Source: Alphaproteobacteria bacterium (GTDB lineage Bacteria > Pseudomonadota > Alphaproteobacteria > Rhodospirillales > Casp-alpha2). Taken from it: 64,000 bases of DNA. Each line of letters starts with the position of its first letter. The stretch's first letter is position 1. Positions 1 through 64,000 of the stretch are shown here, piece after piece. Position numbers and translations under genes: made by a program. The notes under the pieces are model-generated. The model made no database searches, was not told where the DNA came from, and saw nothing but the letters and a program-made list of their open reading frames with translations. The stretch is taken from the NCBI GenBank assembly GCA_024279135.1, contig JAJRRU010000001.1:1-64000 (forward strand), given 5' to 3'.

Positions 1-69
1 CTTAGCCCCGGCCTCGGCCTGTTTCAAAATGTTCATGATTTGGCTGTCTGAATAACGTGACTTTTTCAT
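1..69 (-). CDS. IS3-family transposase OrfA, N-terminus (partial)
   Basis: This is the first 23 codons of a gene that runs off the left edge, reading MKKSRYSDSQIMNILKQAEA and then GAK. The opening is typical of the HTH-bearing OrfA of IS3-family elements, which binds the IS ends and is joined to OrfB by frameshifting. A CAGGAG ribosome-binding site lies just upstream of the ATG at 69. The rest of the IS is outside the window, so intactness cannot be judged. Confidence 0.75.
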   Translation of the reverse strand, partial: MKKSRYSDSQIMNILKQAEAGAK

Positions 70-110
70 GTTGAATCTCCTGCGTTTACATTACGAGAAA
101 ACTCTACTCA
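70..110. mobile_element. Probable IS3-family left end (upstream of orfA)
   Basis: On the minus strand the sequence from position 110 begins TGAGTAGAGTTTTC and leads into the OrfA start. IS3-family terminal repeats begin with TG, so 110 is a reasonable guess for the outer boundary. The matching repeat at the other end is outside the window, so this is a placement by analogy only. Confidence 0.35.
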
Positions 111-128
111 TGAAGACTATTAATTTGA

Positions 129-302
129 GGGAGTATTACCGAGCGGGCTTGGCAAAAAATTATTCCAAGTGGAAAAGTCGATTGCCAACGAATAGGACAA
201 ACAAATGATGACAAATACAAAACACTAGATTACGCAAGCAAATGTGTTGGGACTGACGATGGAATGGTAAATTTCATCATCTCTTCCACATTCCAAACTT
301 GA
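129..302 (+). pseudogene. Open-frame remnant next to the IS end, unknown
   Basis: A 57-codon open frame with no plausible start begins right after a TGA, about 20 bp from the presumed IS end, and finishes at TGA 300-302. The reading (for example YASKCVGTDDGMVNFIISST) looks protein-like but was not recognised. It may be the 3' part of a gene cut by the IS. It could equally be a chance open frame, as no codon-bias test was run. Confidence 0.22.
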
Positions 303-424
303 TAGTCGCCTTATCGCCACGCGAACGGATATCACTGCTTGTGCCACGAATAAAGATGCCCGAACGGTTGCCAACCAAGGAACCGTATTCCTGACGCTTA
401 TCAAAAAGAAAGAGAGATTAAAAA

Positions 425-703
425 ATGACAGATAACCCATTCAACAAGTGGAACAATGATTACCTACGATTATGCAAAAGCAAAAAGTATGATGATTTTT
501 TTAAAAATATAAAATTGGTAGATATTAAACCTTCTTATCATGAAAAGTTTGAAGGCATCCAAGAACAATATTTAAGGCTTGGATATATGTCTCCAGCACA
601 GGCAGAAACTATAGAATATGCAAACAAGAAAAAACCAAAAAATGGTGTATCACCGAGAAGTTTTAGAGGGCTTCCCCGTGTCCTCAATGAAGGTATTTAT
701 TGA
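425..703 (+). CDS. Island hypothetical protein (92 aa)
   Basis: Unrecognised protein of 92 residues, preceded by an AGAGAG purine stretch 6 nt before the ATG. It is rich in charged and aromatic residues, with an amphipathic middle (LRLGYMSPAQAETIEYANKK) and a basic C-terminal part ending SFRGLPRVLNEGIY. No signal peptide or membrane segment is visible. The GLPRVLN block recurs in the broken gene at 992-1494 with only third-base differences, so the two genes probably share ancestry or a conserved peptide. The function is unknown. Confidence 0.5.
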   Translation: MTDNPFNKWNNDYLRLCKSKKYDDFFKNIKLVDIKPSYHEKFEGIQEQYLRLGYMSPAQAETIEYANKKKPKNGVSPRSFRGLPRVLNEGIY

Positions 704-51760: not shown

Positions 51761-52264
51761 TTAACACTCGCCGACCGTATCGATCAGGGAAACCTCAAGT
51801 GCCTCGGTGGGCTCTTTACCACCCCAGATGACATACTGGAAGGCCGGGTAAAAGCGTTCGCATTCGATCATGGCCGTATCGATCAGGTCTTCGATTTGCT
51901 CCTGAGAGGGCTGCGAGGCACCGCGCAAAGGGAGCGCGTGACGGAACATGGGTAGGCCTTCTTCGCTCCAGATGGAAAAATGCCCGAGCCAGAGCTGTTC
52001 GTTGATGATGGCCATCAGCTCGTAGATTGGCGTCAGTTTTTCCTTCGGTACCCGCATGTCAAAAGCGCAGGTGAAATGCATGGCATCAGCAGAATTGTTC
52101 CAGGCGAAATGCATACTGTAATCACACCAGCGTCCGGGGACCTGAACGGCCAGTTCCTCGTCATTGCGCCGATCAAATGACCAGTCATTGTATTCGACAA
52201 TCTGCTCGATAACATCAAGCGGATGGAATGATTGATTTTCGGTGCTGGAGCTTATGTTCGTCAT
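51761..52264 (-). CDS. YbjN-domain protein
   Basis: A 167-residue soluble protein of the YbjN family (type III secretion chaperone-like fold). Recognisable parts are VIEQIVEYNDWSFDRRNDEE, WCDYSMHFAWNNSADAMHFT, and NEQLWLGHFSIWSEEGLPMF. Members are regulators or chaperones of uncertain function; in alphaproteobacteria this type is often next to proC, as here. It is the first gene of the ybjN-proC pair. Confidence 0.8.
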   Translation of the reverse strand: MTNISSSTENQSFHPLDVIEQIVEYNDWSFDRRNDEELAVQVPGRWCDYSMHFAWNNSADAMHFTCAFDMRVPKEKLTPIYELMAIINEQLWLGHFSIWSEEGLPMFRHALPLRGASQPSQEQIEDLIDTAMIECERFYPAFQYVIWGGKEPTEALEVSLIDTVGEC

Positions 52265-52498
52265 GCCCGTTCCCTTCGTTAAATAGGAACATTCCTGAAC
52301 CGTAGATCCGGTGTCGGAATGTGCGACCGGGTGGCAATAACAATATATAGTGTAACCCTCAATATTTAGTTACTGTCTGCCACTCCAACCACTAGGGTTA
52401 GATTGCCATTAGTTTTAAACGGGCGCAAGAGAGCATATGGTTAACGGATGATGAAAGTTGTGGACGAAATCCACCGCGCTAACTGCTGGTGCAGTTTT
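52265..52498. other. Intergenic gap between ybjN and ubiK
   Basis: A 234-bp gap upstream of ybjN on the minus strand. AT-rich TATATA-type sequence at about 52343-52350 could be its -10, but no convincing -35 was found. GTGGA-N5-TCCAC near 52461 is a short dyad. No gene was seen. Confidence 0.3.
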
Positions 52499-52780
52499 TC
52501 ATTTCGCTTTGGGTTGTTTTTTCACCCTGGAAGTCTTGCCGAGAGCGGCTTCCAGCACATTAACGCGTTTTTCAAGCGCTTCTTGTTGCAGGCGGGCTTC
52601 TACGGCGACGGCTTTGACGGCGTCAAATTCTTCACGGGCAACCAGGTCGTTGCTAACCAGTAACTTGTCGATTTGCTGGCGAATCAATGTTTCGATTTCG
52701 CCTTTCAGCCCACTGAGAGTCGTGACGGCACCGGTGGCGACTTTGGCCAGATCATCGAACAGGCGGTTTGAAGTTTGCAT
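52499..52780 (-). CDS. ubiK: Ubiquinone biosynthesis accessory factor UbiK
   Basis: A 93-residue coiled-coil protein of the BMFP/UbiK family. It has an amphipathic N-terminus (LFDDLAKVATGAVTTLSGLK), a long helix with EEFDAVKAVAVEARLQQEAL, and a short basic tail (VKKQPKAK). UbiK assists the UbiJ-scaffolded ubiquinone complex under aerobic conditions in enterobacteria. It is divergent from hldD. Confidence 0.82.
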   Translation of the reverse strand: MQTSNRLFDDLAKVATGAVTTLSGLKGEIETLIRQQIDKLLVSNDLVAREEFDAVKAVAVEARLQQEALEKRVNVLEAALGKTSRVKKQPKAK

Positions 52781-52910
52781 GGCTGTAAGCTTTCATTAGT
52801 GTTGACCCTGTCGTCCTTTATATATGCGCAATGATCGGTGTTTGCAAATACCTATAAGTCTTTATCAGCGCTTGCGGGTAATATATAAACAGGGTTGCAA
52901 CCCGTAACAT

Positions 52911-53948
52911 ATGAGTAATTCCATGAACGAGTCTCAAAACGCGCCCGATTTATCCAATCGTGGTCTTTATCTGGTAACCGGAGCGGCCGGGTTTATTGGA
53001 TCGAACATAGCCGCCGCCCTTGATGCGCGGGGTGCGCGGGTGGTGGTTTGTGACTGTCTGCGCAGCGGTGAGAAATGGCGCAACATCTCCAAACGAGAAA
53101 TTTCATCGATCATTCATCCCGATGATCTGGAAGATTTCCTGCACGGTCACGAAGGCGCTGTCGAGGCGATCATCCACATGGGGGCCATCAGTTCGACCAC
53201 CCAAACCGATGTGGATCTGATCATCGAGACCAATTACCGACTGAGTATCATGTTATGGGACTGGTGTGCCCATCGTAATGTTCCATTCCTGTACGCTTCA
53301 TCTGCGGCGACCTACGGCGATGGCGCGCAGGGCTTTGACGATGATTTCAGTCTCGATAGTCTGGCGCGGTTGAAGCCGCTCAATGCCTATGGCTGGAGCA
53401 AACACCTGTTCGACCGGCGTGTGGCAAGAACCGTTGCGCGCTCTGATCTGACGCCGCCCCAGTGGGCCGGGTTTAAATTTTTCAATGTTTACGGGCCCAA
53501 TGAATATCACAAAGATTCCATGCAGAGCGTGGTGGCAAAATTGTACCCTGCAGCCGTGGCCGGTGAGAAGGCCATGTTGTTTCAGTCCCATAATCCTGAG
53601 TATGAGGACGGCGGCCAGTTGCGAGATTTTATCTGGGTCGGCGATTGTGTCGATATTGTAATGTGGTTTCTTGATCATAATTCCGTGAGCGGAATATTTA
53701 ACTGCGGCACGGGCCAGGCCAGGAGTTTCAAAGATCTGGCACGGGCAGTTTACACAGCACTCGAGCGCAATGTGGATATAGAATACAAACCCATGCCGGA
53801 AAATATCCGTGAAAAATACCAGTATTTCACCCAGGCCAACATGTCACGCCTGATAGATGCCGGGTATGACAAGCCCATGACGTCCCTGGAGGACGGTATC
53901 TCTCAATATGTCTGTGACTACCTCCACACGGACGATCCCTATAGATAA
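52911..53948 (+). CDS. hldD: ADP-L-glycero-D-manno-heptose 6-epimerase
   Basis: A 345-residue short-chain dehydrogenase-type epimerase that makes the L,D-heptose donor for LPS inner core. The NADP-binding loop TGAAGFIG is at 23-30 and the YxxxK pair is Y160/K164 in NAYGWSKHLF. The segment EKWRNISK near 54-61 and FFNVYGPNEYHKDSMQSVV match HldD and not other epimerases. It has a 16-residue N-terminal extension; ATG 52923 is an alternative start. Its product would feed the GT9 heptosyltransferase-like enzyme at 15 kb. Confidence 0.92.
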   Translation: MSNSMNESQNAPDLSNRGLYLVTGAAGFIGSNIAAALDARGARVVVCDCLRSGEKWRNISKREISSIIHPDDLEDFLHGHEGAVEAIIHMGAISSTTQTDVDLIIETNYRLSIMLWDWCAHRNVPFLYASSAATYGDGAQGFDDDFSLDSLARLKPLNAYGWSKHLFDRRVARTVARSDLTPPQWAGFKFFNVYGPNEYHKDSMQSVVAKLYPAAVAGEKAMLFQSHNPEYEDGGQLRDFIWVGDCVDIVMWFLDHNSVSGIFNCGTGQARSFKDLARAVYTALERNVDIEYKPMPENIREKYQYFTQANMSRLIDAGYDKPMTSLEDGISQYVCDYLHTDDPYR

Positions 53949-53962
53949 AGAGTAAAATTCCC

Positions 53963-54766
53963 ATGCTGTTCGCTATCCCTTTTCCGGTCATTGATCCGGT
54001 TATTGTTGAATTTGGCCCTTTGGCCATCCGCTGGTACTCACTGGCCTATATTTTCGGACTGGTGCTGGGTTGGCGTCTCATGCGCCACCTGTCCCGCCGG
54101 GTGGAAAAAAGCGTCACCCTTATCGATACGGATGATTTCCTCATGTGGGCAACCCTGGGGGTAATCCTTGGTGGTCGTCTGGGGTATGTGCTGTTTTACC
54201 GGTTTGAGTATTACATCAATGACCCCATGAGTATTCTTGCCGTGTGGCAGGGCGGCATGTCGTTTCATGGCGGTTTGACCGGGGTGATAATCGCCACGCT
54301 GTTATTTACCCGCAAGCGCAAGATACCGTTGTTGATATTTGCCGATATTCTGGCCGTGGCTTCACCCATCGGGCTGTTTTTTGGCCGGCTTGCCAATTTC
54401 ATCAATGGTGAGTTGTTTGGCCGGGTAACGGACGTGCCGTGGGCCATGGTTTCCCCCCGTGGTGGTCCCTTTCCACGTCACCCCAGCCAGTTATACGAGG
54501 CCGCTCTTGAAGGTCTGCTGTTATTTCTTGTTCTATTGCTGGTTTCAAGGTTTAGCTTTGTGCGACGTCATCCGGGCATATTAAGTGGTGTTTTTATTCT
54601 CGGTTATGGGCTGGCCCGTTCGGTGGTCGAGCTGTTTCGTGAACCCGATGCCCACCTTGGTATCTTGTCGGCGGGTGCCACCATGGGACAATGGTTGTCC
54701 CTGCCCATGATTATTTTCGGGATTGGCCTGATGGTTTATGGGTCGCGCCATGAACGCACTGTTTGA
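53963..54766 (+). CDS. lgt: Prolipoprotein diacylglyceryl transferase
   Basis: A 267-residue, seven-span membrane enzyme that attaches diacylglycerol to the lipobox cysteine. Signature parts are IRWYSLAYIFG, GRLGYVLFY, MSFHGGLTG and FFGRLANFINGELFGR. It would modify the two lipoproteins encoded 2-3 kb downstream in the same run of genes. Its end overlaps the following methyltransferase by 17 nt. Confidence 0.95.
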   Translation: MLFAIPFPVIDPVIVEFGPLAIRWYSLAYIFGLVLGWRLMRHLSRRVEKSVTLIDTDDFLMWATLGVILGGRLGYVLFYRFEYYINDPMSILAVWQGGMSFHGGLTGVIIATLLFTRKRKIPLLIFADILAVASPIGLFFGRLANFINGELFGRVTDVPWAMVSPRGGPFPRHPSQLYEAALEGLLLFLVLLLVSRFSFVRRHPGILSGVFILGYGLARSVVELFREPDAHLGILSAGATMGQWLSLPMIIFGIGLMVYGSRHERTV

Positions 54767-55847
54767 CAAGCTTCGCCAGGAAATAATCGAGACCGGTCCC
54801 CTGACCGTCGAGCAATTTTTGACATCGGCCCTGAGCGATCCCGATCATGGTTATTATATCACCCGCGATCCCTTTGGTGCCCGCGGTGACTTTACCACAG
54901 CCCCGGAAATCAGCCAGATATTTGGCGAACTGATCGGTTTGTGGTCTGCTGCGCTTTGGCAGTCCATGGGCGAGCCGCACCTGTTTAACTGGGTTGAATT
55001 AGGTCCGGGTCGTGGCACATTGATGGCCGATGCCGTGCGGGCAACCCGCAAAATCATAGGCTTCCACGAGGCATGTCACATCCACATGATCGAGACCAGC
55101 CCAGTGCTGAGAGCCAGTCAGCAAAAATCCCTGACAGGGGCCGGTGTGGAGGCCCCACATTGGCATACACAGTTGTCGCAGGTTCCCGCCGGGCCTATGA
55201 TATGCATTGCCAATGAATTTTTCGACGCCCTGCCGGTTCGTCATTTCAAACGTAACATCACCGGCTGGGTGGAAAGAATGGTCGGCCTGAACACGGCCCG
55301 CGACGGGTTGGCCTTTTTGTGGTCGGCACAGATCGTCAAACAAAACCTGATCCCGGAAGTATTCAGCCAGGCTGATGACGGGACCTTGATCGAGACCTCG
55401 CCGGCTGGTTTGCAAATCATGAGTGATCTGGCCGCTCGTATCGCCACATACGGCGGGGCCGGGCTGGTCCTCGATTATGGACATACCCGTTCGGCCCACG
55501 GGGAAACCTTGCAGGCTTTGCGTGATCACCAATACACAAACGTGCTGGACGCGCCGGGTGAGCAGGACCTGACGGCCCATGTAGATTTCGCCGCTCTTGG
55601 CCGGGTGGCGCAAACTGCCGGGCTCCGGGTTCATGGCCCGTGTACCCAAGGCGCGTTCCTCAATGGCCTGGGTCTGGGGTTGCGCACACGCGCACTACAG
55701 GATAATGCCGGATCACCGCAACAGGCGCGCGCTGTATTTGACGGGGCTAACCGTCTGGTCGATCCGGCACAAATGGGCGACCTGTTCAAGGTGCTTGCCA
55801 TCGCCCATGAAACACTTGAGGCATTACCCGCCTTGCCATTAAAATGA
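54750..55847 (+). CDS. MidA/NDUFAF7-like SAM methyltransferase
   Basis: A 365-residue protein of the DUF185/MidA family; the mitochondrial member NDUFAF7 methylates an arginine in a complex I subunit. Clear blocks are GPLTVEQFLTSALSDPDHGY, GARGDFTTAPEISQIFGELI, the SAM loop VELGPGRGTLMAD near 83-95, and ANEFFDALPVRHF. A bacterial complex I target is inference from the family. ATG 54750 is preferred to 54738. pgeF follows after 24 nt, a conserved order in alphaproteobacteria (lgt, midA, pgeF). Confidence 0.9.
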   Translation: MNALFDKLRQEIIETGPLTVEQFLTSALSDPDHGYYITRDPFGARGDFTTAPEISQIFGELIGLWSAALWQSMGEPHLFNWVELGPGRGTLMADAVRATRKIIGFHEACHIHMIETSPVLRASQQKSLTGAGVEAPHWHTQLSQVPAGPMICIANEFFDALPVRHFKRNITGWVERMVGLNTARDGLAFLWSAQIVKQNLIPEVFSQADDGTLIETSPAGLQIMSDLAARIATYGGAGLVLDYGHTRSAHGETLQALRDHQYTNVLDAPGEQDLTAHVDFAALGRVAQTAGLRVHGPCTQGAFLNGLGLGLRTRALQDNAGSPQQARAVFDGANRLVDPAQMGDLFKVLAIAHETLEALPALPLK

Positions 55848-55871
55848 AGAATAATAAAACAGGCGCTTATA

Positions 55872-56654
55872 ATGCATAAATCTAAAACCCTTTCCGGTAT
55901 TGATGGCATTTCCCATGGCTTTTTCTCCCGAAAGGGGGGCCATAGCCAGGGCATTTATCAGTCATTGAATTGTGGTCGCGGTTCTGACGATGATCCAGAT
56001 GATGTGGCGCGCAATCGCCGTGTGGTTGCCGGGGAGCTTGGGGTCGTGTCGGACAACCTTTTGTCGGTGTATCAAATCCATTCGCCCAGCGTGGTGGTGG
56101 TGGATGGCCCATGGAAGCCGGAAGATGTACCACAGGGTGATGCCATGGTGTGCAACAGGCCGGGTTTCGGCCTCGGTATCCTGACCGCCGATTGTGCACC
56201 TGTGTTGTTGTCCAATTCTTCGGGTTCGGTTATCGGTGCGGCTCACGCCGGATGGAAGGGTGCCCTCGGTGGGGTAATCGAGGCTACGATTGATGCCATG
56301 GAGGGCCTCGGTGCCCGGCGTAACGAGATCTATGGCGTCGTCGGTCCTTGTATTCGCTCACAGTCATATGAAGTGGGCAGCGATGTATATGACCAGATAA
56401 CTGCTGTCGATCCGATTTATGCGCAATTTTTTGATCCCGGCAATCGGGCCGGGCACTATCAGTTTGACCTGCCGTGTTACGCGCTTTACCGGCTTGCCAA
56501 ATCAGGCATTGGCATGGTTGAAGACACCCCCGGCGATACCTACGCGGATGAAGATATCTATTTCAGCTATCGCCGGGCAACCCATCGTGCAGAGGCCGAC
56601 TATGGCCGCCAGATTTCGGCTATTGCCATCAACCATAAGGATGAAATGGACTGA
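55872..56654 (+). CDS. pgeF: Peptidoglycan editing factor PgeF (YfiH/laccase domain)
   Basis: A 260-residue YfiH-type protein. The metal/active-site residues are H70 (VYQIHS), C108 (TADCAPVLL) and H125 (GAAHAGWKG). PgeF removes mis-incorporated serine-containing murein precursors in E. coli, and homologues show polyphenol oxidase or purine nucleosidase activity. It lies between midA and a micro-ORF, in the envelope-related run that starts at hldD and lgt. Confidence 0.92.
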   Translation: MHKSKTLSGIDGISHGFFSRKGGHSQGIYQSLNCGRGSDDDPDDVARNRRVVAGELGVVSDNLLSVYQIHSPSVVVVDGPWKPEDVPQGDAMVCNRPGFGLGILTADCAPVLLSNSSGSVIGAAHAGWKGALGGVIEATIDAMEGLGARRNEIYGVVGPCIRSQSYEVGSDVYDQITAVDPIYAQFFDPGNRAGHYQFDLPCYALYRLAKSGIGMVEDTPGDTYADEDIYFSYRRATHRAEADYGRQISAIAINHKDEMD

Positions 56655-56661
56655 ATTGGGT

Positions 56662-56733
56662 ATGCCCTACATAACGACAATCATCATCGTCTTTTTTGGT
56701 TCCCTGCTGGTTATGTGTGTGATGGTGGTATGA
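56662..56733 (+). CDS. 23-residue single-span membrane peptide
   Basis: The ORF begins MPYITTIIIVFFGSLLVMCV and ends MVV, almost wholly hydrophobic, one membrane span. It starts 8 nt after the pgeF stop and its TGA overlaps the next gene's ATG as ATGA, the coupling used by many gene pairs here. An upstream ATTGGG is a poor ribosome-binding site. It is either a small membrane protein or a translational relay into the lipoprotein gene. Confidence 0.45.
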   Translation: MPYITTIIIVFFGSLLVMCVMVV

Positions 56734-57800
56734 CAAAAAACACCTGCAACAGGGCACAGGCTCGCGGGCATTCACAGCCCATTTGGCGGTCAGCTCTGGG
56801 CGTTATTCTGTTCTCTATGGTGGTGGCATCGTGCGCAATTAATACACCCCGGCCCTCGGGCACGGCTCAGGTTATCGCCGTTCATCAACCAGTTGGCCCA
56901 CCGCCGCCCCTGGCCAGGGCTCTGGCCCAGTCGGTGGTAACAGAACTTGAACACCGCGGTTACATCGCCGGGCTGGCCGGTACCCTCAAGGCTCAGTTGG
57001 ATCTCACCGGGAAAGCCGAGACTTTGGATGCGTCTCATGCCCCAAGTGTCGCCTTGATTTCGTGGACTTTGCTCGATGGTAAACAAACGGAAGTTGCTTT
57101 CTTGCGACAATACATCAATGGCAGCTCTGATGCCTGGGCCTATGGCTCACCGGCCATGATCCGTGTGATCGGCGAAAAAACCGCAAATGATCTGTCACCT
57201 TTCCTGGCCGACCCACCCCGGAAACGGGTCGGCTCTGCACCACGACTGCCACCGGTTATTAATGAAGCCCGATCCCTTGAAGAGCTGTTTGATCTGCAAC
57301 CTGCAAGTCAGGATACCGGGTCTTCTGCAGCGCAGGGAAAGACAATAAATCAATCCCCATCGTCGGCTACCCAGGCCAGCACACAACAGCCTCAGGCAGC
57401 TCTGCCCGTTGTGGTGACGGGTGGGCAGAACCGACCCTTTGGCCTGTGGGTCGATGCGGTCACCGGGGCACCGGGTGATGGTAATGCCTCGCTTACGGGG
57501 TTTATGCTGGAGATGCTGGAAAACGCCGGTGTGCCGTTCGCCCGAACCGCAGGCACGGCCAGTCACTATATTCAAGGTGTTGTTGATGTAGAGGCCCTCG
57601 ATGCTACCTTGGAACATGTGACGATTACCTGGATAATCCTCAATTCATCGGGACAGGAACTGGGCCGTGTTAACCAGAGTAATGATATCGTCCGCGGATC
57701 ATTGCATCAGGAATGGCGCGATACGGCGCGGTTTGCCGCACAAGGCGGTGTCGAAGGCATTATGGCAATTCTGGAACGCAATATGGGCGCGGTGCAATAA
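56730..57800 (+). CDS. Lipoprotein of unknown function, paralogue 1 (356 aa)
   Basis: A signal peptide (residues 17-34) ends in the lipobox VASC with C35 as the lipidation site. Residues 50-160 form one domain and 225-350 a second, joined by a Ser/Gln-rich linker. The second begins GAPGDGNASLTGFMLEMLEN (246 on) and has SHYIQGVVDVE, ITWIILNSSGQELG and NDIVRGSLHQEW. The same pattern ends the next gene's product, and weaker traces appear in the N-terminal domain, suggesting a duplicated fold. No known family was recognised. ATG 56730 is chosen for the ATGA overlap. Confidence 0.75.
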   Translation: MTKNTCNRAQARGHSQPIWRSALGVILFSMVVASCAINTPRPSGTAQVIAVHQPVGPPPPLARALAQSVVTELEHRGYIAGLAGTLKAQLDLTGKAETLDASHAPSVALISWTLLDGKQTEVAFLRQYINGSSDAWAYGSPAMIRVIGEKTANDLSPFLADPPRKRVGSAPRLPPVINEARSLEELFDLQPASQDTGSSAAQGKTINQSPSSATQASTQQPQAALPVVVTGGQNRPFGLWVDAVTGAPGDGNASLTGFMLEMLENAGVPFARTAGTASHYIQGVVDVEALDATLEHVTITWIILNSSGQELGRVNQSNDIVRGSLHQEWRDTARFAAQGGVEGIMAILERNMGAVQ

Positions 57801-57867
57801 TGCCCTGTGATGTTTAGCGGGTATTAAGGGCTTGCTCATTTTAGGGCTCGTTGGCTACCATCGTGAT

Positions 57868-59310
57868 ATGAGCAAACGATTCGCCATGATCGCAACAATA
57901 TTAATTGTCGCGTTTCTTGCGGGGTGTGCGACCGCGCCCGTGGTTGTGCAGGAAATCCCGGCTGTTCAGACCCAACAACCCGTCGTAAAGCCAGCACCCA
58001 GAAACCTGCTGGTTCTACCCTTAACGGGGTTGGCACCAAGAATAGGCATTGCCGTGGGCATCAGGACCGCCTGGACCTTGCGTCAGGCAGGTTATCCGGC
58101 CCGCCACGTGACCGTATCGGATGGCATTAACCCGGTCCTGAGCGGAACCATTACCCAGACCTCCGGAGACGGGGACATTATCTGGCTGGATATTGACTGG
58201 GCGGCTTATCATGCCGATGGCTCGCTGATCGGTAAATATTTACAAAAAACCGCCGTTCCGCAAGGTAGCTGGCGGTTGTTATCCACAGAGACACTGGGTG
58301 TTGTTGTCATCGAAGCCATGCCAGGGATCGATACCTTGATCCGCACCAAGATGTTTCCACCCGGATCACAAATGGCGTCTGCCAACCAGCCTGTCCAGGC
58401 CGTGGACAACCTGGTGTACCGCCCCGACGATACGGTGATCGTGTCTGGCCAGGGTATGGCCAGGGTTAATAATGTTGGGCGTAAAGTCTGGGAACCGCTG
58501 GTATCGGTTTCCACCGAAAGCGGGATCGTAACCCTTGTTAAGCCTGCCGACCGACAAGTTGCCCTGGACCCTGTGGTACTGATCGATCCATCGGCCCGCA
58601 GAAACCAGTTTGGTGTTTATGTGGCTGATAACCTGACCGAAGAATATGCCCGGGAAATCGATACAAATTTGCCTTCGGTCGATGATATCACCGACTTGCC
58701 GCACCCGACCTCGCAAACCATGATATCGTCTGATCCCACACCCAGGACGCCGCGTCAGATTGCCGATGAAAAAGCCTTGGAAGAAGTCGAGGTTCTCGCC
58801 GCTCTCGTCACCTTGCAGGCTGACGTTCCAGCCGAGCAACCCGAAGATGCTGTCAGCGAGGTTGGCAAACAGATTTTGGCTGCTTTTGCGGCCCTGCAAA
58901 AACCCCCTGTGTTTCTGGTTCGCCAGGTCATTGGTGCCCCGGGTGATGGCGGGGTAACCTTGCGCAATGCCATGCGCAAGGCGTTACGCAACAATGACGC
59001 CATGATCAGTGATGACATGGACCAGGTCAGTCATATTGTGCAGGGCACGGTCCGTGTTGAAGTCCCCTTTACCGGCAAGCAGCGGGTCCGGATCGTGTGG
59101 ATGATTACCGATACATCCGGTCTGGAAATGGGTACCGCCCTGCAGGAAAATGATGTGCCCGAAGGTTCGTTAAATGAGGCCTGGGGGCCGGTTGCCCAAT
59201 CTATTGCCGATGCGGCCGTGCTGGGTATTGCACAATTGTTTGAAACGGGTCTGGATGCAGGCGGAGCAGGGGGACGATTAGCCCAACCGGATCTGCCACA
59301 TTTGCAATAA
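57868..59310 (+). CDS. Lipoprotein of unknown function, paralogue 2 (480 aa)
   Basis: The signal peptide ends in LAGC with C20 lipidated. The N-terminal domain (about 45-160) contains LSGTITQ, IIWLDIDWAAYHADGSLIGK and a VPQGSW turn. The C-terminal domain (350-460) repeats the plan: IGAPGDGGVTLRNAMRKALR, SHIVQGTVRVE, IVWMITDTSGLEMG, NDVPEGSLNEAW. It aligns with the C-terminal domain of the preceding lipoprotein throughout. A middle segment (180-345) is unique to this protein. ATG 57868 starts the signal peptide. Probably outer-membrane anchored; the function is unknown. Confidence 0.75.
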   Translation: MSKRFAMIATILIVAFLAGCATAPVVVQEIPAVQTQQPVVKPAPRNLLVLPLTGLAPRIGIAVGIRTAWTLRQAGYPARHVTVSDGINPVLSGTITQTSGDGDIIWLDIDWAAYHADGSLIGKYLQKTAVPQGSWRLLSTETLGVVVIEAMPGIDTLIRTKMFPPGSQMASANQPVQAVDNLVYRPDDTVIVSGQGMARVNNVGRKVWEPLVSVSTESGIVTLVKPADRQVALDPVVLIDPSARRNQFGVYVADNLTEEYAREIDTNLPSVDDITDLPHPTSQTMISSDPTPRTPRQIADEKALEEVEVLAALVTLQADVPAEQPEDAVSEVGKQILAAFAALQKPPVFLVRQVIGAPGDGGVTLRNAMRKALRNNDAMISDDMDQVSHIVQGTVRVEVPFTGKQRVRIVWMITDTSGLEMGTALQENDVPEGSLNEAWGPVAQSIADAAVLGIAQLFETGLDAGGAGGRLAQPDLPHLQ

Positions 59311-59420
59311 TCTGTTCGGCGTTCAGGTAATCAGCGGGACGAATGAGGGGAAATATCGGCAAAAACCCTTAAAATCGTCAAAATATCCAGAAAACACGGC
59401 TTTTAAATCTTTGTGACAGG

Positions 59421-59449
59421 TTTACTTGGCTTCATGGCGTTGATATATT
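59421..59449 (+). promoter_or_regulatory. Promoter of prs
   Basis: TTTACT (59421-59426), 17 bp and TATATT (59444-59449) fit sigma-70 spacing and lie 39 nt before the prs start, in a 177-bp gap after the second lipoprotein gene. Confidence 0.5.
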
Positions 59450-59487
59450 CCGCCGCGTCTGGCGAATAGAAGAATTGATATCACACC

Positions 59488-60420
59488 ATGAAAATTTTAT
59501 CCTGTAATAGTAACCGACCGCTGGCTGAAGCTATTGCCAGCTATCTGGAAATCCCCCTCGCGATCGCCACTGTACGGCGGTTTGCTGATATGGAGATATT
59601 CGTCGAAATTATGGAAAACGTTCGCGGCGAGGATGTTTTTGTCATCCAGCCAACGTCTTACCCCGTGAACGATAACCTGATGGAACTGTTGGTCATGCTG
59701 GACGCCTTGAAACGAGGATCGGCCAGGCGTATCACAGCCGTGATGCCCTATTATGGTTACGCCCGACAGGACCGTAAGTCCGGCCCCAGAACACCTATTT
59801 CAGCCAAGCTGGTGGCGAATTTGATTACCAAAGCCGGTGCGGACCGTGTCCTGACCGTTGATTTGCATTCTGGTCAGATACAAGGGTTTTTTGATATCCC
59901 CACGGACAACCTGTTTGCCGAACCGTATTTGTGCCGTGATGTGCAAAGCCGGGTAGGTGTCCGGGATCTGGTGATTGTTTCACCCGATGTGGGCGGTGTG
60001 ATTCGCGCGCGTGGCATGGCTAAGCGGCTCAATGCAGGGCTGGCGATTATTGATAAACGGCGGGAAAAAGCCGGGGTTTCCGAAGTCATGAATGTGATCG
60101 GCGATGTGGAGGGTTTCCACTGTATTCTGATTGATGATATCGTCGATTCTGCGGGAACCCTGTGCAATGCGGCCACAGCCCTTATGGAAAAGGGTGCACT
60201 GGATGTATATGCCTATGTAACCCACGGGGTGCTGTCGGGTACGGCCACCACACGGGTTAAGGATTCCCCCATCAAGAGCCTGGTTATAACCGATAGTATT
60301 CAGGCAACCGAGGATGTAATTTCCACACCAAACATCGAACAAATGACCATTGCGCCATTATTGGCAGAGGCAATCAGTCGAATAAGTAATGAGACATCAG
60401 TATCCAGTCTGTTCCGCTAG
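59488..60420 (+). CDS. prs: Ribose-phosphate diphosphokinase (PRPP synthase)
   Basis: A 310-residue class I enzyme making PRPP from ribose 5-phosphate and ATP. It contains [20 protein letters not shown] near 90, the metal site [15 protein letters not shown] near 128, and the PRPP loop [12 protein letters not shown] near 213. It heads the prs-rplY-pth-ychF run, a common order in alphaproteobacteria. Confidence 0.96.
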
Positions 60421-60441
60421 GTAGCGCCAGACTAATGACCC

Positions 60442-60467
60442 TGTCGGCACCCCTGGAGGTCGACAGA
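60442..60467 (+). promoter_or_regulatory. Hairpin in the rplY leader
   Basis: CTGTCG and CGACAG pair perfectly, with an inner ACC/GGT pairing, about 25 nt before the rplY start. It may be an autoregulatory leader element for L25 or a weak attenuating stem between prs and rplY. No T-run follows. Confidence 0.35.
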
Positions 60468-60492
60468 TTTAACCAACCAAAGGAGTTATATA

Positions 60493-61173
60493 ATGGTTGA
60501 TTTTAGACCACTCGTAGCGCATTCGCGCGACCGTGCAGGTAAGGGGGCAGCTCGGGCCGTAAGGAAAGCCGGTTTTGTACCCGCTGTCATTTACGGCGAC
60601 AAGAAAGCCCCAACATCGATTTCAATTGAACCCATTCAATTAACCAAGGAACTGGACACCGGATCGTTCTTTACCAACGTTTACGAAATCGATATTGACG
60701 GAACATCTGAACGGGTTCTGCCCCGCGATGTTCAATTCCATCCGGTCAATGACAAACCCTTGCATGTGGATTTCATGCGCTTTGGCAAGAATACCATGTT
60801 TGCCATTGAGGTAACCGTTGAATTCATCAATGAAGAAGACTCTCCCGGCCTGGTCCGTGGTGGTGTGCTGAACGTGGTTCGTTACTCCGTTGAATTGATG
60901 TGTTCTCCGATTAATATTCCCGATACGATCGTTGCCGATCTGACCGGTCTTGATATTGGCGACAGCTTGCACATCAGTCAGATTGAACTGCCTGAAGGCG
61001 TTGCGCCGACCATTACCGATCGTGATTTCACCGTGGCGACCATAGCAGCACCAAGCGTTGAAGAGCTTCCTGAAGATGAGGAAGTCGATGAAGATGCAGA
61101 GCTGGCCGAAGGTGAAGAAGGTGAAGAAGGTGAGGAAGGCTCAGAAGAATCCGATGGTGGTTCTGAGGACTAA
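60493..61173 (+). CDS. rplY: Ribosomal protein bL25 (Ctc type) with acidic tail
   Basis: A 226-residue long-form L25/TL5/Ctc that binds 5S rRNA. The L25 domain is at 1-90 (ARAVRKAGFVPAVIYG and LPRDVQFHPVNDKPLHVDF), followed by the beta-rich TL5 C-terminal domain. The last 35 residues are a Glu/Asp/Gly tail containing EEGEEGEEGSEES. GGAG lies upstream of the start, and pth follows after 26 nt. Confidence 0.95.
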   Translation: MVDFRPLVAHSRDRAGKGAARAVRKAGFVPAVIYGDKKAPTSISIEPIQLTKELDTGSFFTNVYEIDIDGTSERVLPRDVQFHPVNDKPLHVDFMRFGKNTMFAIEVTVEFINEEDSPGLVRGGVLNVVRYSVELMCSPINIPDTIVADLTGLDIGDSLHISQIELPEGVAPTITDRDFTVATIAAPSVEELPEDEEVDEDAELAEGEEGEEGEEGSEESDGGSED

Positions 61174-61199
61174 GACCCTAATATTCCGGGAGTACTGCC

Positions 61200-61802
61200 A
61201 TGTTTCTGCTTGTGGGGCTCGGTAATCCCGGTTCGGGGTATATTCGCAACAGACATAATGTTGGGTTTATGGCGGCGGATGAAATTGTCCGCCGTCATGC
61301 CTTGGGTTCGTTTCGTGATAAATTTCACGGTGAATTATCCGATGGCCAGATCGATGGTCATAAAGTCCGGGTGCTCAAACCCCTGACATTCATGAACGAG
61401 TCGGGTCGTGCGGTTCAGGCCGCCATGACCTTTTTCAAGGTTAACCCCAAACATGTCATAGTGTTGCACGATGAATTGGACCTGGTCGGTGGTAAAGTCC
61501 GTATAAAACGGGGCGGTGGCCATGCCGGTCATAATGGCTTGCGCAGTATCCATGCCCACGTGGGGCCTGATTATGGCCGTGTGCGTATCGGTATCGGCCA
61601 CCCCGGGGACAAGGACCGGGTGGTCTCGCATGTGTTGAAGGATTTTTCCAAACAGGAAGATATCTGGCTCGACAAGGTGCTTTGCGCCATTGCGGATCAT
61701 ATGGGCATCCTGATAGACGGTGATGACGGCCTGTTTCAGACCAAAGTCGCGCAAAACGTGAACCCCAACATAAAAAATGACATTAATAAAGGGACTGAAT
61801 AA
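61200..61802 (+). CDS. pth: Peptidyl-tRNA hydrolase
   Basis: A 200-residue enzyme that recycles peptidyl-tRNA. Catalytic H19 is in RNRHNVGF, N9 in GLGNPG, FMNESG binds the tRNA end, and the LHDELDL acid block is near 96. GGHAGHNGLRSI is typical. Its stop overlaps the ychF start by 1 nt. Confidence 0.96.
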   Translation: MFLLVGLGNPGSGYIRNRHNVGFMAADEIVRRHALGSFRDKFHGELSDGQIDGHKVRVLKPLTFMNESGRAVQAAMTFFKVNPKHVIVLHDELDLVGGKVRIKRGGGHAGHNGLRSIHAHVGPDYGRVRIGIGHPGDKDRVVSHVLKDFSKQEDIWLDKVLCAIADHMGILIDGDDGLFQTKVAQNVNPNIKNDINKGTE

Positions 61803-62902
61803 TGGGTTTTAATTGCGGCATTGTAGGGCTTCCCAATGTGGGAAAGTCCACATTATTCAATGCGTTAACCGCGACAGCCTCGGCGGAAGCCGCCAATTTC
61901 CCGTTTTGCACAATCGAGCCCAATGTGGGCCGGGTCGCGGTACCGGATAGTCGGTTGAACAAAATTTCAGAGATTTCGAAATCAGCCAAGTTAATTGCTA
62001 CCCAGCTTGAATTTGTCGATATTGCCGGACTGGTTCGCGGTGCGGCAAAAGGCGAGGGGCTGGGTAATCAGTTTCTCGGCAACATCCGTGAGGTGGACGC
62101 CATAGTCCATGTGCTGCGGTGTTTTTCCGACGATAACGTGACCCATGTGGAAGGTACAATCGACCCGGTAAATGATGCCGAGACTGTCGAAACAGAACTG
62201 ATGCTGGCCGATCTTGAAAGCCTTGAGAAACGCGTGCAACCCCTGGAGAAGAAAATTCGTGGCAATGACAAAAATGCCATGGCACAACTGGATCTGGTCG
62301 AACGATCCCTGGTAACTTTACGCGACGGCAAACCGGCACGCCTGGTGGAGATCGCCGACGACGAGCAGAAAAATTTCCGCATGTTGCAATTGCTGAGCGC
62401 CAAACCTGTTTTGTATGTCTGCAATGTGGATGAGGCGTCTGCCGCATCGGGCAATGATTTTTCGGCTCGCGTCGAAACCATGGCAACCGAACAAGGGGCC
62501 GAATGTGTGGTCATCTCGGCCCAGATCGAACAGGACATTGCCCAGATAACCGACGCCGGGGAACGGGCCGAATTTCTGGACGCGCTGGGGTTGGAAGAAA
62601 CCGGCCTGACACGGGTTATTGCGGCAGGCTACCATTTGCTGGATCTGATTACATTCTTTACATCCGGGCCAAAGGAAACCCGGGCCTGGACGGTTTCACG
62701 CGGTGCTCTGGCCCCCCAAGCCGCCGGTGTTATTCACTCCGATTTTGAACGGGGTTTCATCCGCGCCGAGACGATTTCCTTCGATGACTTCATTCAATAT
62801 GGCGGTGAACAAGGCGCTAAGGATGTGGGTAAGATGCGCCAGGAGGGTAAAACCTATCAGACCCGCGATGGTGATATCATGCTGTTCAGGTTTAATGTGT
62901 AA
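61802..62902 (+). CDS. ychF: Redox-regulated ATPase YchF
   Basis: A 366-residue Obg-related P-loop protein. The G1 motif GLPNVGKST is at 9-17. The base-recognition motif reads NVDE instead of NKxD, the change that switches the family from GTP to ATP. A coiled-coil insert lies at about 125-160, and the TGS domain forms the C-terminus (FFTSGPKETRAWTV onward). YchF binds ribosomes and modulates oxidative stress responses. Confidence 0.96.
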   Translation: MGFNCGIVGLPNVGKSTLFNALTATASAEAANFPFCTIEPNVGRVAVPDSRLNKISEISKSAKLIATQLEFVDIAGLVRGAAKGEGLGNQFLGNIREVDAIVHVLRCFSDDNVTHVEGTIDPVNDAETVETELMLADLESLEKRVQPLEKKIRGNDKNAMAQLDLVERSLVTLRDGKPARLVEIADDEQKNFRMLQLLSAKPVLYVCNVDEASAASGNDFSARVETMATEQGAECVVISAQIEQDIAQITDAGERAEFLDALGLEETGLTRVIAAGYHLLDLITFFTSGPKETRAWTVSRGALAPQAAGVIHSDFERGFIRAETISFDDFIQYGGEQGAKDVGKMRQEGKTYQTRDGDIMLFRFNV

Positions 62903-62954
62903 CGGTATTATAGCTGCGACCGTATAGATATTGACCCCGGAAAGGACATGAACC

Positions 62955-63839
62955 GTGAACCATTCAGGCAAGCCCGTTATCGGCGTAATCGGTGGCAGTG
63001 GCGTTTATGAGATCGAAGGACTGACCAATACACGCTGGCAGTCAATTGAAAGCTCATTTGGAACGCCCTCCGATGAGCTTTTTTTCGGCGAACTTGATGG
63101 CCAGCAACTGGTGTTTCTGCCACGCCACGGCCGGGGTCATAAAATACCACCCAACAAGGTAAACTACCGGGCCAATATTGACGCCATGAAGCGGGCAGGG
63201 TGCACCGAGCTGCTTTCCATCAGCGCTTGCGGTTCCTTGCGTGAAAATCTGCCGCCGGGCACCTTTGTCATTGTTGATCAGTTTATTGACCGCACCATTG
63301 ACCGTGAGAAAAGTTTCTTTGGCCCCGGAATGGTGGCCCATGTGGGGCTCGGTCATCCGGTTTGCGCTCGGTTGAGCGATAAACTGTATGAATGTGCGCA
63401 AAGTCTCGGCATTGATACCGTCAAGGGTGGCACATATCTGGCCATGGAAGGTCCTCAATTCTCGACCCTGGCGGAATCCGAGTTGTACCGTCAATGGGGC
63501 TGTGACGTAATCGGCATGACCAACATGCCCGAGGCCAAACTGGCCCGGGAAGCCGAGCTGTGTTACGCCAGCGTTGCCATGGTTACCGACTTCGATTGCT
63601 GGCATCCCGACCACGACCATGTGACGGTTGATGCCATTATCGCCGTGTTGATGCAGAATGCCGACAAGGGTCGCGAACTGGTCAAAGCCACCGCACCGGA
63701 GCTTGCCGGTCGGAGCGAGCCGTGCGAGTTCGGGTGTCACCGGTCCCTGGAAAACGCCCTGATTACCGCGCCCGATGCCCGTGATCCGGCCATGATTGAA
63801 AAACTGGACGCCGTTGCCGGGCGCATTCTGGATCGCTGA
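62955..63839 (+). CDS. mtnP: 5'-methylthioadenosine phosphorylase
   Basis: A 294-residue purine nucleoside phosphorylase-family enzyme that splits methylthioadenosine to adenine and methylthioribose 1-phosphate. It has IGVIGGSGVYEIEGL at the start, FLPRHGRGHKIPPNKVNYRA, SISACGSLRE, and MEGPQFSTLAESELYR. The start is GTG 62955 with AAGGA upstream. It overlaps the following mtnA-like gene by one base, giving two consecutive steps of methionine salvage. Confidence 0.94.
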   Translation: MNHSGKPVIGVIGGSGVYEIEGLTNTRWQSIESSFGTPSDELFFGELDGQQLVFLPRHGRGHKIPPNKVNYRANIDAMKRAGCTELLSISACGSLRENLPPGTFVIVDQFIDRTIDREKSFFGPGMVAHVGLGHPVCARLSDKLYECAQSLGIDTVKGGTYLAMEGPQFSTLAESELYRQWGCDVIGMTNMPEAKLAREAELCYASVAMVTDFDCWHPDHDHVTVDAIIAVLMQNADKGRELVKATAPELAGRSEPCEFGCHRSLENALITAPDARDPAMIEKLDAVAGRILDR

Positions 63840-64000
63840 TGAAAGTCAACAACACACCCTATCGCACCATCTGGCTGGCCGATGATGGCTGGGCGGTGGA
63901 AATCATCGATCAGACAAAATTACCGCATAATTTTATTACCGTCAGACTGGAAAACCTCGCCGATGGCATTCATGCCATTGCCGACATGCTGGTCCGTGGA
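63839..64000 (+). CDS. mtnA: Methylthioribose-1-phosphate isomerase, N-terminus (partial)
   Basis: The first 54 codons of a gene running off the right edge. The reading begins MKVNNTPYRTIWLADDGWAV and continues with IIDQTKLPHNFITVRL, the typical MtnA opening, in which the 'ID' and 'LP' positions are conserved. Its ATG overlaps the mtnP stop (TGATG). MtnA acts directly on the product of MtnP, which supports the call despite the short sequence. Confidence 0.82.
   Translation, partial: MKVNNTPYRTIWLADDGWAVEIIDQTKLPHNFITVRLENLADGIHAIADMLVRG

Follow-up and report, generated by a model that had tools for sequence, protein, structure and literature searches.

Tandem two-module lipoproteins between pgeF and prs represent a new alphaproteobacterial family within a known fold superfamily

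The lipoproteins PqiC, PelC and LptE are grouped together in the accessible text of PMC10897342, in which PqiC is described as an octamer and PelC as a dodecamer. TraT is the subject of PMC11733297 and PMC12658005. Two further outer-membrane lipoproteins, DalA and LpoB, act on the wall machinery according to the available text of PMC10470522. The same text states that homologues of Lpp and of LpoA/LpoB are not known in Alphaproteobacteria, which would leave open how outer membrane and wall growth are coupled in this class.

Here we analyse two tandem genes, A and B, in a stretch of alphaproteobacterial DNA of 64,000 nucleotides (called below the window; features are collected in Table 1). By Pfam matches, the order of genes is an epimerase, lgt, a Methyltransf_28 protein, pgeF, A, B and prs, followed downstream by an L25-type ribosomal protein (rplY), a peptidyl-tRNA hydrolase (pth), YchF and a phosphorylase. 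The PF02578 neighbour is presumably pgeF, the gene of the peptidoglycan editing factor. Gaps are 75 bp between pgeF and A, 67 bp between A and B and 177 bp between B and prs. Rfam gave zero matches in positions 52000-64000, and a scan of 55700-59700, set aside here, returned 8 promoter-like sites (3.5 expected) and one terminator-like site, on the - strand. Each of the two proteins starts with a signal peptide and a lipobox, and neither matched a Pfam or NCBIfam model at cut-off. Both show the features by which we define the family: a lipobox, an N-module followed by a C-module, and location in the slot between pgeF and prs.

Table 1. Features of the lipoprotein locus and its neighbours, in window coordinates
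Feature	Coordinates	Strand	Evidence
lgt, prolipoprotein diacylglyceryl transferase	53963..54766	+	PF01790, E 5.5e-78
pgeF (assumed name)	55872..56654	+	PF02578, E 4.9e-66
Lipoprotein A, 356 aa, two modules	56730..57800	+	ORF, translation, relatives, model
A lipobox cysteine Cys35, VASC, +2 Ala	56832..56834	+	sequence
A N-module, residues 44-162	56859..57215	+	model, profile match to C-modules, fold rows 46..162
A C-module, residues 237-354, GAPGDGN and NDxxxGSLxxxW loops	57438..57791	+	sequence, conservation, model, fold
Lipoprotein B, 480 aa, two modules and linker	57868..59310 (from ATG)	+	ORF, translation, relatives, model
B lipobox cysteine Cys20, LAGC, +2 Ala	57925..57927	+	sequence
B N-module, residues 45-165	58000..58362	+	model; 15.8 bits vs C-only HMM; fold rows 42..168
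B C-module, residues 346-462	58903..59253	+	E 1e-20 vs A; model; fold rows 345..465
prs, ribose-phosphate pyrophosphokinase	59488..60420	+	PF13793, E 1.1e-52

The initial annotation had read A and B as tandem paralogous lipoproteins with a shared C-terminal domain, and this reading held. Both C-modules carry GAPGDG, then SHYIQGVVDVE in A and SHIVQGTVRVE in B, a strand with TW or VW, respectively, SGQELG or SGLEMG, and finally the NDxxxGSLxxxW site (NDIVRGSLHQEW in A, NDVPEGSLNEAW in B). The Smith-Waterman score of the two C-modules (181) was equalled in none of 500 shuffles, and BLASTP aligned A with B at E 1e-20.

A faint copy of the same plan had also been claimed in the N-terminal halves, making four related modules in all. 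Out of 500 shuffles, the real pair score was equalled by 14 for the N- and C-modules of A, 11 for A-N with B-C, 6 for A-C with B-N, 5 for B-N with B-C and 390 for the two N-modules with each other. Because comparing the four window modules in pairs gave no proof, profile tests were used for the N copies. An HMM trained solely on C-modules scored 79 of 95 N-terminal parts higher than any of 570 decoys, either shuffled or reversed, in a set that kept five three-module ORFs whose N part contains an extra C-module. The N-module of B in the window passes this test (15.8 bits, E 6e-5); that of A is marginal (E 0.045), its 6.6 bits falling slightly short of the top decoy at 6.9 bits. Comparison of an N-profile with a C-profile, each from 66 A-type sequences, gave a probability of 98.6% and E 1.3e-15 over 114 columns. 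One iterated search had admitted N-modules into its profile and was discounted as proof. It is confirmed that each lipoprotein holds N- and C-terminal copies of one module; judged by sequence, the N copies are unprovable from the two window proteins alone and firm once relatives are added. The faint copy is thus real in profiles and models, and the letters quoted for it, DGSLIGKY and VPQGSW, are found in B only, A reading differently.

In AlphaFold2 models of A and B, all four modules have the same order of elements, namely a strand, a helix, three long strands and a helix (some modules add one short strand), and the halves of each protein come out as related. For A (66 sequences) pLDDT is mostly >90 in the modules and 80.7 over the whole chain, with a pTM of 0.46. 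The corresponding values for B (19 sequences) are mostly >85, 68.2 and 0.38, and its linker of ~180 residues is mostly <50. As pTM is low, the relative placing of the two modules within A or B is unpredicted.

Foldseek with A as query gave 8 rows at E <=0.001, one of them a ribosomal chain; LptE, Cj1090c, PelC and 3bf2 were retrieved at E 2e-4 to 6e-4, with LptE structures on top. The B model retrieved PelC (E 1.6e-4) and 3bf2 (E 7e-4). These scores are modest, with low TM-scores and large rmsd, because the query had two modules. A structural aligner matched FlgT, TolB, DUF330/PqiC, CsgG, CC_3750, PelC, TraT, HpaA and LptE at Z 8-11, a little higher than the best Z of 7 to 8 that it usually gives without a true match. 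Its rows cover both halves of A and mostly the C-module of B, with PelC, HpaA and PqiC placed on the N-module of B too (42..168). Many of these fold matches belong to one superfamily.

A sequence search of the PDB with two profiles returned nothing below E 0.5. Against Pfam, the C consensus matched ABC_trans_aux at E 0.004 and the N consensus matched LptE at E 0.087 over positions 4-110 of 118, both below cut-off. When 20 proteins were tested individually, the relatives L159 and L166 reached 27.0 and 26.1 bits, for an ABC_trans_aux cut-off of 26, the match lying on their N-modules. Rows below cut-off were set aside: TraT in 7, LptE in 3 and ABC_trans_aux in 2 of the 66 members, a CBP30 row for A, and TsaE, AAA and Zeta_toxin rows around the C-module of L150. 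The fold is already known; the pair forms a new family within a known superfamily. The label 'undescribed' given to the pair is right for the family, as A and B match no Pfam or NCBIfam model at cut-off and no description of them was found in the literature, where text searches easily miss a family that has no name and subscription journals are mostly uncovered; the fold itself is characterised. A match to a characterised family exists in the same limited sense: it is there for the fold, and at family level A and B stay below the cut-offs, L159 and L166 just passing. PapS of Rhodospirillum and LppA of Sinorhizobium were considered as namesakes and set apart by description, the former having an OmpA-like domain (accessible text of PMC11369160) and the latter being 148 aa long (accessible text of PMC10659215).

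PqiC (ABC_trans_aux, PF03886, DUF330) is a lipoprotein of the same module fold as A and B: 2iqi fits the C-module of A at Z 10.5 (3.4 A over 114 residues), and 8q2d fits the N-modules of A (Z 8.9) and of B (Z 9.7, 3.6 A over 113). In contrast to PqiC, A and B have two modules per protein and no adjoining MCE gene, and PF03886 matches neither at its curated cut-off. CsgG, PelC and TraT, all outer-membrane lipoproteins, share the module fold at Z 9 to 11, whereas secretion or conjugation genes are not adjacent to A and B. With such ring formers (PqiC/DUF330, PelC, CsgG, TraT) among the closest folds, with the octamer and dodecamer cited above and with L159 and L166 lying 1.0 and 0.1 bits above the ABC_trans_aux threshold, the modules might oligomerise at the outer membrane like PqiC, PelC and TraT, as a ring or toroid of envelope transport that receives a partner or passes on a substrate. 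However, A and B have no adjoining transport gene, and the PqiC-type protein of the host is encoded elsewhere (C4:116274), 0.8 kb from an MCE gene (C4:115201) and not at 56730-59310, and we consider such a ring somewhat unlikely. The host MCE and PqiC-type genes stand together at G000:C4:115201-116651, on the same contig and outside the window.

LptE (PF04390) shares the module fold as well (3bf2 at Z 9.9 and 4rh8 at Z 9.3 on A; 3bf2 at Z 10.5 on B), and differs from A and B in that these have two modules and a Pfam score below cut-off. An LptE-like accessory of LPS assembly, binding LptD alongside the ordinary LptE, would agree with the LptE structures at the top of the Foldseek list for A, with the weak match of the N consensus and with weak matches to the LptM signal model of NCBIfam in 10 of 66 members (best E 0.068). 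Yet every LptE or LptM score is below cut-off, the ordinary LptE of the host is a separate gene at C2:142708 (25.6 bits for a cut-off of 23, the sole PF04390 match in the host), and an lpt gene is absent from the nine neighbours tested; this role is very doubtful.

The N-terminal domain of TolB and FlgT also share the module fold (Z 9 to 11; compared by fold alone), and differ from A and B in domain make-up. The putative lipoprotein CC_3750 of Caulobacter (4kwy) matches the N-module of A at Z 10.1 and the C-module of B at Z 9.8; its chain of 132-137 residues holds a single module, versus two in A and B.

Profile searches, proposed earlier for the distribution of these proteins, show the family to be widespread; it is unnamed, and no curated model covers A or B. 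The two-module profile matched 131 of 385 genomes of the class. Across 398 genomes sampled from the phylum, 29 matched, 28 of them in the class (host counted) and one, weakly, outside; this last (G717, E 4e-5 over 53 positions) was rejected, its region L186 giving no module match at E 0.01. With B as query 52 of 61 genomes were matched, and with A also 52 of 61. Within the window's family (37 genomes), two C-modules were found in 25 genomes, one in 8 and none in 4; in the 25, they lie in one fused ORF in 5 cases and on different contigs in 4. One of the four family genomes with no match is the sole congener in the sample (G001, 78% complete, 600 contigs). Among the other 24 genomes of the order, 19 have one C-module and 5 have none. 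Of the 116 family ORFs, fragments counted, 94 carry two modules, 17 carry one and 5 carry three. A stop within the C-module splits the gene at L080:4959-5855, by decay or assembly error. A scan of named genomes, in which 79 loci were kept out of at least 465 relatives, includes Gluconobacter, Roseomonas, Thalassospira, Tistlia, Pacificispira, Aestuariispira and Magnetovibrio among the genome titles. Found so broadly in the class, mostly in one gene slot, and uncurated, the family merits a Pfam entry and is a target for deletion.

For the 79 named loci, with a limit of 2.5 kb, pgeF was found upstream in 67, prs downstream in 59 and both in 49. Many of the 30 loci without both neighbours stop at a contig edge. 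Nine have room and no prs within 2.5 kb (L096, L098, L106, L108, L109, L113, L116, L128, L134), three have room and no pgeF (L071, L139, L140), and L110 and L118 were counted as failing because the stop-to-stop frame extends back over pgeF. At some loci an extra gene separates pgeF from the lipoprotein, an M24 peptidase in 4 of 5 tested (L063:3681-4847, L083:3730-4887, L111:3306-4487, L133:3719-4870); the window has none at that place.

Outside the order, a one-module lipoprotein of 198-282 aa is encoded between pgeF and prs in five genomes of families f194 and f197, taken here to be Rhizobiales; the module match is weak in two of the five (L183, E 5e-4; L184, E 2e-3). A profile of these five proteins matched 27 of 385 class genomes, in many cases by way of the N-module of a protein with two modules. 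Among 12 class genomes picked mostly for having no family match, prs lies closely behind pgeF in four (L212, L215, L217, L220), with no lipoprotein recognised between them.

A module tree was built from 126 of 200 module rows over 125 columns, A-type loci being randomly thinned from 80 to 43 and B, fused and one-module rows retained; it is weak in detail. N and C sides are split with support 100/99, the N side holding 43 A-N, 16 B-N and 3 one-module rows and the C side 43 A-C, 16 B-C and the 5 third modules of fused ORFs. The 16 B-N rows cluster with one row from a single-gene contig (97/82). The 16 B-C rows cluster with the five fused third modules (100/83; B-C alone, 87/88). Because the tree separates N from C, internal duplication in one gene would have come first and gene duplication later. 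The fused ORFs (L081, L086, L089, L095, L101) are of 506-610 aa and have the order N-C-C, and as their third module groups with the C-module of B, A and B seem to have been fused and the N-module of B lost. The simplest account, from tree and synteny, would then be that a single gene in the pgeF-prs slot gained a second module through internal duplication, that the entire gene was then doubled into A and B in the window's family, and that in one genus the two were fused and the N-module of B disappeared. The one-module form may be ancestral or a product of loss; its position inside the N clade was discounted because the rows join a long branch (L187) and only three of the five relatives were used. 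Together, the single-module, two-module, two-gene and fused forms offer a natural series on what module duplication adds.

The pair had further been taken for an envelope 'system'. This is not shown, since A and B look like a later duplication of one gene and the pair is confined to the window's family in the order sample (two C-modules in 0 of the 24 genomes outside it). On our reading, A and B are lipoproteins of an unnamed family of known fold rather than a new kind of system.

Over the family, a lipobox was found in 99 of 116 ORFs, with Asp at +2 in only 1 of the 99. In E. coli, Asp at +2 leads to retention of a lipoprotein in the inner membrane. The outer membrane is the probable anchoring site of the paralogous lipoproteins A and B, which would face the periplasm. 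The mature N-terminus CGPLPRPF recurs after the lipobox cysteine in many A-type relatives (for example L076, L071 and L093).

Mean column identity over 66 sequences is 22%, and nine columns are invariant, eight in the C-module and the ninth at the lipobox cysteine, Cys35 of A. Two loops of the C-module (strand 1-helix 1 and last strand-helix 2) have a conservation of 0.53 versus 0.40 elsewhere (p 0.0074 in a permutation test whose neighbouring positions are non-independent), and the corresponding N-module loops are not more conserved (p 0.24). The predicted order of elements places the two conserved loops on one edge, and from the conservation of the C-module we infer that it docks a partner.

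Our main reading, to which we give a probability of about 0.4, is that A and B are non-catalytic adaptors or scaffolds whose C-module edge docks a periplasmic partner, likeliest the machinery of peptidoglycan synthesis or division. Each protein would present tandem LptE/PqiC/CsgG-type modules on a single lipid anchor, the N-module near the membrane and the C-module beyond the linker, with the GAPGDGN and NDxxxGSLxxxW loops forming the docking edge. In action this would resemble LpoB (PF13036) or DalA. The likeness concerns proposed action only and no relationship by sequence or structure is claimed; LpoB is not among the 50 fold matches listed for A and B, and PF13036 has no match at cut-off in the host genome.

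The case for the wall as site of action is modest, and draws on two SPOR fusions, on the pgeF neighbour and on a lack of LpoB in all but one of 31 relatives. In 2 of 65 relatives the modules are followed by a C-terminal SPOR domain (E 2.5e-16 each), and SPOR is not among the 25 families listed for the 66 members. One fusion, L058:1171-2466 (= L226:8458-9753), has two modules and lies in the pgeF-prs slot. The other, L204:1417-2922 (= L225:3950-5455), counts against the wall, having one module, with a long linker, and lying outside the slot, on a contig of 9.7 kb without pgeF or prs and with a chemoreceptor-like frame upstream, recognised by eye. The lack of LpoB in 30 relatives and in the host is in line with the statement on Alphaproteobacteria in the available text of PMC10470522. 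Also counting against the wall, prs, rplY, pth and ychF are housekeeping genes with no envelope role, so gene order may be inheritance only, several class genomes have no gene in the slot, and four genomes of the window's family gave no match.

A loosely constrained structural lipoprotein, that is, an envelope spacer or tether with no specific partner, inherited with the conserved gene order, would fit the low mean identity and the four loci where prs soon follows pgeF with no lipoprotein gene recognised. The invariant columns, nearly all in the C-module, and its conserved edge favour a specific contact instead, and we hold such a spacer to be unlikely. As an extension of the adaptor reading, A and B might be the missing LpoB-like regulator of Rhodospirillales and relatives, with the C-module edge activating a peptidoglycan synthase and the two proteins as paired specialists; this is quite unlikely. 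If true, the regulator would be encoded with pgeF and lgt, and one lineage would have added a septal SPOR domain.

The single LpoB match among the 31 relatives, a clear one (G045:C128:3844-4272, 84.7 bits), lies in a genome of the order that also has the A/B family (L023).
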